Source of the DNA: Candidatus Omnitrophota bacterium
GTDB lineage: Bacteria; Omnitrophota; Gorgyraeia; JABMSB01
Assembly (NCBI GenBank): GCA_013202205.1
Contig: JABMSB010000032.1
Span: 1 to 44,053, forward strand
Direction of reading: 5' to 3'
DNA length: 44,053 nt
Of the stretch, positions 39,658 to 41,876 are shown one piece after another (position 1 is the first letter of the stretch; the number at the start of each line of letters is the position of its first letter). The notes below the pieces were generated by a model that saw nothing but the letters and a program-made list of their open reading frames with translations, had not been told where the DNA came from and did no database searches. A program made the translations under genes and the position numbers.

Positions 39658-41121
39658 TTATTTTGATAGGCCGAAGAGGTCTACTTTTAATTCGGTCTTC
39701 TCGGATATTTTCTTAAACCACGTATCGAGAAGTTCGGCCTCTTTTCTCTGAAGGACCTTACCTTTATATTCGTCCATGTATTTTAAGAATTCATCATTAT
39801 CTATAGGTATCAATTTAGCCACTTTTAATATCGCGAATCCACCCGATATCGGCAAAAGAGCACTTACGTCACCCTCTTTAAGCCCAAACGCTGCATCGGC
39901 AAAACCCTCCGAAGCGCCTATGCCGGGGATATATCCAAAACGGGTAATCTCTGCGGTAGTCTCCGTTTTAAGGCCGAGCCCTTTAGCCGCCTCCTCGAAT
40001 GATACCCCTTCGGTCGCAATCAGCTCTTTTATCTTCGTGAGATCTTCCGCCATCTTCAGGCGTGCCAACTCTTTTGCCTTCTCATTCAACAAATCTTCTT
40101 TTACATTCTCTTTGACCGCTTCAAAGGCCTCTATATGAGAATCCTTCTTCTCCTTGACGGTGATCGCATAGTAGAACTTTTGTTCTTCCATATATACAAG
40201 CTCTTTGTGTGCTGATTCCACCTTAAGCTTTGGCACTATACTCGATATCTCATGAGAAAATCCAATACCGGGTATAAGTCCCTTAAGGTCGAAGAGAGGC
40301 GTCTCCTCTAACTTGAGCGAATTCTTCTCCGATATCTTCTCAAGCTTCAAACCGCGGAATAACCCGTCGGCTACTATCCCCAGCGTATCGTAATCCTCCT
40401 CGCCTATCTTTATATAGCCGAGCGCATACTGGACGGGGATTCTATAATTCTCAAGGTTCTCTTTGTAAAACGGGAGGAGCTCACTCTCTGAGACAGTCAC
40501 TCGATCTAAAAAGGTGTCCGACCCAGTTATCACATATGTCACGACCGTCTTCTCATTCTCTTTCTTGTATAGCTCTCTTATCTCATCCTCGGATACGCTT
40601 AAATCCCCCAAGACGCTTTTTTTAAGTTTTTCGATCTTCAAATTGTCCCGCGTCTCCTCTTCGTATTGACGGGGTTCAACACGCAGGTTATATTGCAGGA
40701 TATGTTCATAAAGTTTTGTGTCGAAGGCCTTCCCGCGCGTGAAGAACGGGAATGTCTGTATGAAGCGGATAACCTCCTCATCACTTACCTTAATCGATTT
40801 CCGTTTTGCTTCCTCCAGGATTACAAGCCGGTCCCATCCCAACTTATTTATGACGCCGCTCTCGAGGAACTTTTTTAGCTCATCGGGGTTATTGCCGTAC
40901 CTGAAGAAGAGGTTGTGGTATACAATCTTGGCGCTCTCACCAAGTTCCTGTAATTTGATCTTGCGGCCGTCTATCTTGCCGACAACAGATGGTACGCCGG
41001 ACTTCCTGTCACGTACGGCAGAACCCGCACCCCAGAGTATGAAGGCAGGCACAATTATTATGAGAAGTGCCCACATTATTCGTTTTACATTCTTTTTCTT
41101 CCGCAGATATTTCAGTGGCAT
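39658..41121 (-). CDS. PpiD/SurA-like membrane-anchored periplasmic chaperone (peptidyl-prolyl isomerase family)
   Basis: The protein starts with basic residues then one membrane helix (RIMWALLIIIVPAFILWGAG, about residues 15-34), so the remainder faces the periplasm. A SurA_N-like region follows (DGRKIKLQELGE... VSDEEVIRFIQTFP), then long charged stretches and a C-terminal PPIase-like segment (FADAAFGLKEGDVSALLPISGGFAILKVAKL). Start: ATG at 41121 is preceded by a textbook GGAGGAG; an upstream ATG would add 13 residues. It likely aids folding of exported or outer-membrane proteins, indicating a diderm envelope. Whether the isomerase site is active is unclear. It is the only gene on the - strand. 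Confidence 0.86.
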   Translation of the reverse strand: MPLKYLRKKKNVKRIMWALLIIIVPAFILWGAGSAVRDRKSGVPSVVGKIDGRKIKLQELGESAKIVYHNLFFRYGNNPDELKKFLESGVINKLGWDRLVILEEAKRKSIKVSDEEVIRFIQTFPFFTRGKAFDTKLYEHILQYNLRVEPRQYEEETRDNLKIEKLKKSVLGDLSVSEDEIRELYKKENEKTVVTYVITGSDTFLDRVTVSESELLPFYKENLENYRIPVQYALGYIKIGEEDYDTLGIVADGLFRGLKLEKISEKNSLKLEETPLFDLKGLIPGIGFSHEISSIVPKLKVESAHKELVYMEEQKFYYAITVKEKKDSHIEAFEAVKENVKEDLLNEKAKELARLKMAEDLTKIKELIATEGVSFEEAAKGLGLKTETTAEITRFGYIPGIGASEGFADAAFGLKEGDVSALLPISGGFAILKVAKLIPIDNDEFLKYMDEYKGKVLQRKEAELLDTWFKKISEKTELKVDLFGLSK

Positions 41122-41186
41122 AACATCTCCTCCTTTAGATAATGCGACCATTATAATCATATCTCACTCCCTTTACAAGCAAAATC

Positions 41187-41360
41187 TTATCCACACCCCA
41201 AGACGTTTCTCAACTCAATCGGAGATCTGCCCCAAACTCAATCGGAGAAGTGCCCCTCGACCATGTGATCAAAATGGCGTTTTAGGCTAGGGGGCAGATC
41301 TCCGATTGAAAACAGGGCAGATCTCCGATTGGAAACAGAAACGTCTTGTCTTGTGGATAA
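41187..41360. repeat. 174-bp inverted-repeat element (MITE/IS-end-like) with internal direct repeats and two DnaA-box-like ends
   Basis: Two 70-base arms (41187-41256 and 41291-41360) are inverted copies aligning without gaps, 55 of 70 bases identical by my count. Each arm holds, from the outside, TTATCCACA, AAGACGTTTCT, and two copies of CAATCGGAGATCTGCCC spaced 23 bases apart (starts 41216 and 41239; mirrored at 41291 and 41315). A 34-base spacer separates the arms. The conserved blocks are separated by diverged linkers. This resembles multi-repeat ends of an IS21-like element or a MITE. The outer 9-mers equal the E. coli DnaA-box consensus. It fills the region between the ppiD-like and PilZ genes; no transposase is present. 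Confidence 0.75.
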
Positions 41361-41417
41361 CTTTGGAGTAGAAGAAAAGCGCATTTATTAGGGTATAAAA
41401 AAGGTAGATTATGCATA

Positions 41418-41445
41418 TTGATTTTTCTCTAAGATGTGATATAAT
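41418..41445 (+). promoter_or_regulatory. Sigma-70-type promoter upstream of the PilZ gene
   Basis: TTGATT (41418-41423) and TATAAT (41440-41445) are separated by 16 bases, with an extended -10 (TGA just before TATAAT). It shares the string ATGTGATATAAT and an upstream AAAAAAGGTAG with the promoter at 42005. A leader of about 75 bases with a G-rich stretch precedes the PilZ start. Confidence 0.65.
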
Positions 41446-41528
41446 TTGTGTGCAAAAGGTAAATTTGTGAAAAGATACTTATTTCGTTAAAAATTGGGGC
41501 GGGATAGGTCTAGCCGGAGGGGACCGCG

Positions 41529-41876
41529 ATGGACAATTTCTATGCTGAAAAACGCACTCACAAGAGATTAGAATTTGCTAACTCATTGCAATACATAAAG
41601 TTAGATGCAAATACTCGAGAACGGGTTGAGGCCATGATAAAGGATATATCGCGCGAAGGCATATCCTTCTTTACTAATGAGTTCATCTCCCTGGCTACTC
41701 GTCTTGTCCTTACAATAAGGCTGCCTCGCTATCCAAGGCCGATAAAGGTCATCTCTAAGGTGATATGGATCAGGAAGGACTCCAAGACGGATAGGTTTGA
41801 GCTGGGTAATCAATTTGTGGAGATGATTAAGGAAGACCAGAAGCTATTTGAGCAGTATTTAGGCGAGGCTGTATAG
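41529..41876 (+). CDS. PilZ domain protein (c-di-GMP receptor candidate)
   Basis: This small 115-residue protein has the two PilZ c-di-GMP-binding signatures: RTHKR (R9-x3-R13) and DISREG (D39-x-S-x2-G44). The rest is the PilZ beta-barrel, with RPIKVISKVIWIRKD and ELGNQFVEMIKED near the end. A GGAGGGG (41516-41522) lies 6 bases before the ATG. It is a single-domain protein and so probably acts by binding a partner when c-di-GMP rises, for example to adjust motility or polysaccharide export. It has its own strong promoter and a probable terminator downstream. Confidence 0.88.
   Translation: MDNFYAEKRTHKRLEFANSLQYIKLDANTRERVEAMIKDISREGISFFTNEFISLATRLVLTIRLPRYPRPIKVISKVIWIRKDSKTDRFELGNQFVEMIKEDQKLFEQYLGEAV

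Follow-up and report, generated by a model that had tools for sequence, protein, structure and literature searches.

Dispersed inverted-repeat dimers of probable REP-type transposase ends, some bordered by DnaA boxes, in an Omnitrophota genome

Two inverted arms, each ending outwardly in a DnaA-box 9-mer, lie between a surA-like gene and a PilZ gene in the 44-kb window, our term for the whole stretch of DNA analyzed here. Are they the ends of a mobile element, as the original prediction considered, or a regulatory operator array or a site at which DnaA binds, as it also proposed? The window corresponds to contig C14 of a 1.5-Mb metagenome-assembled genome in 94 contigs (G000, ~92% complete, with collapsed repeats; hereafter the host genome). 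The coordinates of all features are collected in the table.

We examined the architecture of the 174-bp element. Its inverted arms (41187-41256 and 41291-41360) matched at 55 of 70 positions (79%; binomial P = 8e-21) without a gap, and its self-complementarity of 67 compared with a maximum of 22 among 500 shuffles, which bore out the symmetric, gap-free 70-bp arms that had been proposed. As a single strand, the element was predicted to fold into one long hairpin (-58 kcal/mol, z = -12.3). Each arm alone formed a weak hairpin, and single-arm stability was left out of the evidence. A scan of positions 40900-41700 against Rfam gave no match. From the outside inward, each arm consists of TTATCCACA, a diverged 3-nt gap, CAAGACGTTTCT, a diverged 5-nt linker, CAATCGGAGATCTGCCC, a second diverged 5-nt linker, and CAATCGGAGA(TC/AG)TGCCC, with the two B blocks starting 23 bp apart. 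The outer 9-mer is indeed a DnaA box on both sides, in opposite orientation. The alternation of conserved blocks with diverged linkers was likewise as described, and so were the two block copies at 23-bp spacing, except that the inner B block of the left arm is CAATCGGAGAAGTGCCC, with two mismatches to the other B blocks. The innermost ends of the arms, GGGGCAC and GGGGGCAG, do not fit the motif GGGGWSAS exactly.

Features of the element in the window and of related loci. Positions without a contig or locus prefix are those of the window; C numbers are contigs of the host genome (G000) and L numbers are other loci examined.
Feature	Location	Strand	Remark
Left outer 9-mer TTATCCACA (DnaA-box consensus)	41187..41195	+	3 nt outside left arm
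Left arm (terminal inverted repeat)	41199..41256	+	arm profile 64.9 bits
Left arm sub-blocks	CAAGACGTTTCT 41199-41210; B 41216-41232; second B 41239-41255	+	
Spacer between arms, 34 nt	41257..41290	.	varies among paired copies
Right arm (terminal inverted repeat)	41291..41348	-	arm profile 61.6 bits
Right arm sub-blocks	B 41292-41308; B 41315-41331; AGAAACGTCTTG 41337-41348	-	
Right outer 9-mer TTATCCACA (TGTGGATAA on plus)	41352..41360	-	3 nt outside right arm
Left neighbour: SurA-N/rotamase peptidyl-prolyl isomerase	39658..41160	-	outside element; divergently transcribed
Right neighbour: PilZ-domain protein	41529..41876	+	outside element
Pilin-adjacent arm loci (G000)	C78:13026-13856 (L091); C76:30309 (L099); C84:51282 (L100); C17:15876 (L089)		
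Second-family copies (G000)	C8:24924; C27:50; C62:15048; C62:23580; C78:13100; C84:52043; C92:23890		
Compact REPtrons	L244 1470-2130; L246 1470-2130; L247 1150-1830		RAYT ORF between DnaA boxes and GTAG palindromes
TGTGGATAA with TTGACA-like site	window 41155-41195; L090 4722; L100 3585; L177 58; L185 159	- (window)	

A genome-wide search with a 186-bp query from the window returned 49 raw matches on many contigs of the host genome, from which we delimited 30 arms; the same query gave zero matches in 58 relatives of the same class at DNA-level sensitivity. The element is thus multi-copy, with its arms solo or paired. All 30 arms begin C|AAGACGTTTC(T/C), that is, with CAAGACG, and none has a GTAG tag at its hairpin foot. 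This start is followed by a linker of ~5 nt and by (T/C)CAATCGG.GA..TG(C/T)CC or a diverged version of this sequence, with a second B block 23 bp further on in most arms. Many arms end in TGTCCCC (= GGGGACA), and those with a preceding G or C fit GGGGWSAS. The pattern of conserved blocks and diverged linkers held across all copies in the host genome. Seven close inverted pairs were present (on C14, C62, C78, C34, C21, C79, and C66), with spacers that vary between near zero and ~700 bp; all other arms stood alone or were truncated. Two pairs of 118 bp, one on C79 and one on C34 at unrelated loci, were identical at 107 of 118 positions, the common centre included, and the window element matched the C62 pair at 126 of 150. 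Neither direct repeats nor target duplications were found abutting the seven close pairs, an absence that fits the Y1/HUH REP-type group (IS200/IS605 superfamily).

Arms of the same build were found around transposase genes in related genomes. The Omnitrophota MAG nzgw296 (G060) contains seven strict matches to the arm pattern, and its arms (GGGACGTTTCT..AATCGGAGAAGTGTCCCC) occur as solos, as a minimal back-to-back pair, and as one pair bracketing a transposase. At this last locus (L116), an inverted arm pair identical at 39 of 39 positions surrounds a 160-aa Y1_Tnp gene (Pfam E=3e-16), whose product has the HUH motif as HIH in MPHHIHLIV and the catalytic Y---NP motif as YVELNP; its score against NF047646 was 68.6 bits, under the cut-off of 80. 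When used as a query, this protein found matches in 292 of the 384 genomes of the class. We examined 32 REP-type transposase loci, namely those with a delimitable gene, and at 27 of them the flanking inverted repeats were well above shuffled controls. Nearly all 27 follow one plan for the terminal inverted repeats (TIRs): an outer G(G/A)GACGTTTCT or GACGGTTCT-like block, AATCGG or AAAGC in the middle, and GTGTCCC inside. Several of these TIRs, such as those of L151, L156, and L164, contain tandem 23-bp modules (AATCGG..GTGTCCCC), and those of L151 (ACAGACGCTTGCCAAGCCAATCGGGAAGCTGTCTTGATTCCAATCGGGAAAGTGTACT) and L164 have the A-B-B order of the window arms.

A profile built from 25 arms of the host genome matched the TIRs of relatives with a best E of 1e-7, and at E<=0.01 it detected nine short-transposase loci. 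It found none among 40 loci with long transposases at that threshold; these carry other TIRs, such as GGGGTCAGACC. A search of public genome contigs with CAATCGGAGAWSTGCCC gave chiefly chance matches, with real arms only in two contigs (L074 and L084), both from Omnitrophota; these matches are biased as a control for the arm profile and were excluded from that role. In several elements, for example those at L155, L163, and L164, the upstream TIR has AAAGC where the downstream TIR has AATCGG, possibly a left-end/right-end distinction for the transposase.

Because the arms share the build of the TIRs of ~160-aa Y1/HUH genes (RAYT/TIRYT) in the class, we read the element as a dimer of REP-type transposase ends. 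Its 150-bp core (41199-41348) is very probably a non-autonomous, REPIN- or MITE-like dimer of two inverted TIRs of a TIRYT-kind Y1/HUH transposon. What was observed directly is dispersal in the element's own genome, the dimer form, the lack of target duplications, and, in relatives, the association of the arm plan with Y1 genes; that the element has been mobile is indicated by its dispersed copies rather than by empty sites. The suggestion of multi-repeat transposon ends left as a MITE was therefore right in kind, given the dispersed copies and the transposases flanked by the same ends in relatives, and wrong as to the IS21 type. The divergence of linkers beside conserved blocks does point to constraint, and the protein binding that had been invoked for it is most likely that of transposase-recognized ends. 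By analogy with IS200/IS605 and TnpAREP biology, the transposase would recognize each end by its imperfect hairpin in single-stranded form and would move or copy the dimer in trans, without target duplication. The solo arms may be decayed dimers.

No arm-flanked transposase gene was found in the host genome at its ~92% completeness and with its repeats collapsed. The only Y1 gene detected there (C86:234-812; NF047646 81.6 bits) is related to TnpArep 4er8 (E=7e-10), and its product shares only 28% identity with a RAYT from a related GTAG element. An arm is present ~750 bp from the gene, but since no arms surround it as inverted repeats, we rejected it as the mobilizer. The arm-bracketed transposase of the host may be lost, missing, or contained in unbinned or unassembled repeats. 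That no autonomous copy was found lowers our confidence in a mobilizer in this genome, not in the kind of repeat.

We then compared the element with known systems. The TIRYT class comprises RAYT-like genes with long TIRs and a GGGGWSAS motif, and TIR repeat families derived from it are moderately abundant and occur in dimers (PMC3733652; Di Nocera et al. 2013). This TIRYT/TIRtron counterpart is probably TnpAREP subclass 2.1 of PMC6006769. The likeness lies in a Y1/HUH REP-type gene between long, partly self-complementary TIRs that end inward in GGGGACA(C/G), and in TIRs that also occur elsewhere in the genome as moderately abundant repeat families, single and dimeric. However, the transposases that match here are short, at ~160 aa, and most of the long ones sampled (>220 aa) carry other TIRs; the TIRs are composites of 23-bp tandem modules; and some arms have a DnaA box at a fixed gap, whereas the flank consensus of TIRYTs does not look like a DnaA box (PMC6006769). 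With the REPs and REPINs mobilized by RAYTs, the element shares a dispersed, non-autonomous existence as inverted hairpin dimers and solos, the lack of target duplication, and insertion of an IS into the repeats. In contrast to these, the window arms have no GTAG tag and resemble long TIRs, and ~30 copies is low for REPs.

The DnaA boxes set this element apart; without them, the window would hold a routine dispersed repeat. Five of the 30 arms, at four loci, have TTATCCACA outside the arm at a gap of 3 (counted from the first C), and at every other gap from 0 to 11 the count was 0 of 30. Near matches (at least 6 of 9 positions) also peaked at gap 3, with 10 as against 0-2 at the other gaps. 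The remaining 25 arms lack an exact box. TTATCCACA occurs 42 times in the 1.5-Mb genome, compared with 11 for the reversed control, and the window contains no exact copy besides the two that bound the element. The boxes beside arms are thus non-random, standing at a fixed 3-bp gap. At ~70 other transposase loci, TTWTNCACA was absent from the span between the TIRs plus 60 bp, so a link to DnaA is not general for TIRYT elements. Some TIRYTs have a DnaA_C-like C-terminal HTH, yet their flank consensus is unlike a DnaA box (PMC6006769). We found no report of a coupling between DnaA boxes and REP-type transposases in openly licensed papers.

Many of the other TTATCCACA occurrences in the host genome belong to a second repeat family, in which TTATCCACA, N3, a 26-nt palindrome (GTxG..TTAA..CxAC), N3, and TGTGGATAA follow one another. 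Units of this kind, TTATCCACA-N(2-3)-GTAG..TTAA..CTAC-N(2-3)-TGTGGATAA, with copies at L239-L244, L246, and L247 as well as in the host genome, are present in no fewer than 10 genomes of the class. The pair TTATCCACA-N20-44-TGTGGATAA was present in 12 of the 384 genomes, compared with one genome for the reversed control, and 10 of these 12 carry a GTAG-type core, mostly at gap 2. As it required the boxes, this search was blind to box-free palindromes; box-free GTAG palindromes also occur in the host genome. In three genomes (G367, G383, and G270), two GTAG/DnaA-box units stand on either side of a RAYT gene, whose ATG lies 2-4 nt after TGTGGATAA and whose stop codon abuts the next TTATCCACA or lies within 1-2 nt of it. 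In these compact REPtrons, the DnaA box belongs to the structure of the unit. The GTAG units resemble the window element in their presence in the same genome, their 3-bp DnaA-box offset, and their link to a REP-type transposase in relatives, but their core (GTAG...TTAA...CTAC) is unrelated and their RAYTs are of a different lineage (NF047646 111-115 bits, two proteins scanned).

Because the offset is the same 3 bp as in this GTAG-tagged, RAYT-type repeat of the host genome, the boxes beside the window arms might, with less certainty than the preceding steps, be a positional feature of the insertion chemistry, either a target or a retained flank. Either the window element follows the same box-targeting logic as the second family, or a dimer was substituted for the core of a GTAG unit. 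The latter reading, a sub-hypothesis within the explanation given above that concerns the boxes only, holds that the window contains a dimer of the first family nested into a DnaA-box-bordered REP unit, with the GTAG core replaced and the boxes belonging to the second family only. It would account for the identical 3-nt gaps on both sides, since the second family has N3 gaps; however, an exact, flush replacement needs the same cut positions, and at other loci three more arms have one box each, also at gap 3. We consider this nesting rather unlikely. More broadly, it is conceivable, though we put it forward only tentatively, that the REP-type elements of this class (probably of Omnitrophota) have DnaA boxes built in or targeted, in two unrelated hairpin families and at a fixed 2-3 bp. 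If so, DnaA would mark insertion sites, or would couple the initiation of replication to RAYT expression and the movement of REPs. How REPs spread and which host signals guide HUH transposases are poorly understood. With DnaA boxes at a fixed offset in two unrelated families, one of which surrounds a RAYT gene, a connection of REP transposition with the initiator of replication becomes concrete and testable. The window holds what is very probably a miniature non-autonomous REP-transposase element whose oddity is an unexplained, testable coupling to DnaA boxes.

An alternative for the arms themselves is that they terminate a DDE transposon, of the IS21 family or another such as an rve-type IS, and that the element is its MITE. 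The several repeated blocks per end are like those of IS21 in outline, and a DDE-type IS with TGT... ends adjoins arms at several places. Five contigs (C39, C17, C40, C79, and C64) end inside what is apparently one collapsed IS with termini TGTTGTAG.. and TGTACTAG.., and a C-terminal 29-aa fragment of it matched rve_3 weakly (E=5e-4), leaving its family unsettled. At four of the five contig ends (C39, C17, C40, and C64), the IS flank is an arm interrupted within a B block, and at the ends of C79 and C64 the shared IS sequence stops exactly at its termini. Since this IS has termini of its own, it was inserted into the arms, and since it is also present at the C79 end, where there is no arm, it is not their owner. 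Arms make up ~0.1% of the genome, so its presence in them at four of five ends suggests REP-targeted insertion; REP sequences are known IS targets (PMC1525189). No istA or istB was found between the arm pairs read, and the lack of target duplications at the pairs and the different, Y1 class of the transposases bracketed by arms of the same build in relatives also argue against IS21. We rejected an IS21 or DDE origin as highly improbable.

Were the element an array of regulatory operators for the divergent surA-like and PilZ genes, its intergenic position and the alternation of conserved blocks with diverged linkers would fit, but against this stand ~30 copies beside unrelated genes, solo or paired and with variable spacers, and a regulon cannot account for homologous arms around transposase genes elsewhere; this reading has very little to recommend it and was rejected. 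Equally implausible, and likewise rejected, is a chromosomal DnaA-binding locus (an origin, or a datA/DARS-like site) with the palindrome serving DnaA: it would explain the two exact inverted boxes at the ends, the sole exact ones in the window, and the recurrence of inverted box pairs, but dnaA lies on contig C89 with TGTGGATAA ~400 bp upstream, DnaA boxes are missing from most arms, the core is found again as transposon ends, and the GC skew, positive throughout the window and weaker only near the minus-strand gene at 39.7-41.2 kb, shows no sustained change at 41.2 kb, where an inflection had been proposed as a check.

Some further observations concern the surroundings of arms and boxes. At four of the arm loci, genes for type IV pilin-like proteins (FTLIELLIVV) are immediate neighbours of arms or stand between them, and on C78 an inverted arm pair (812 bp) encloses the pilin gene. 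A solo arm variant at C86:4695-4734, GACGTTTCCC-TTTCCAATC-GGGAAACGTC, is a perfect hairpin and adjoins a DnaA box and a promoter-like TTGACA..TATATT. TGTGGATAA is often followed by a TTGACA-like -35 element within about 8-20 bp, and these pairs suggest that DnaA boxes lie upstream of promoters in the host genome.
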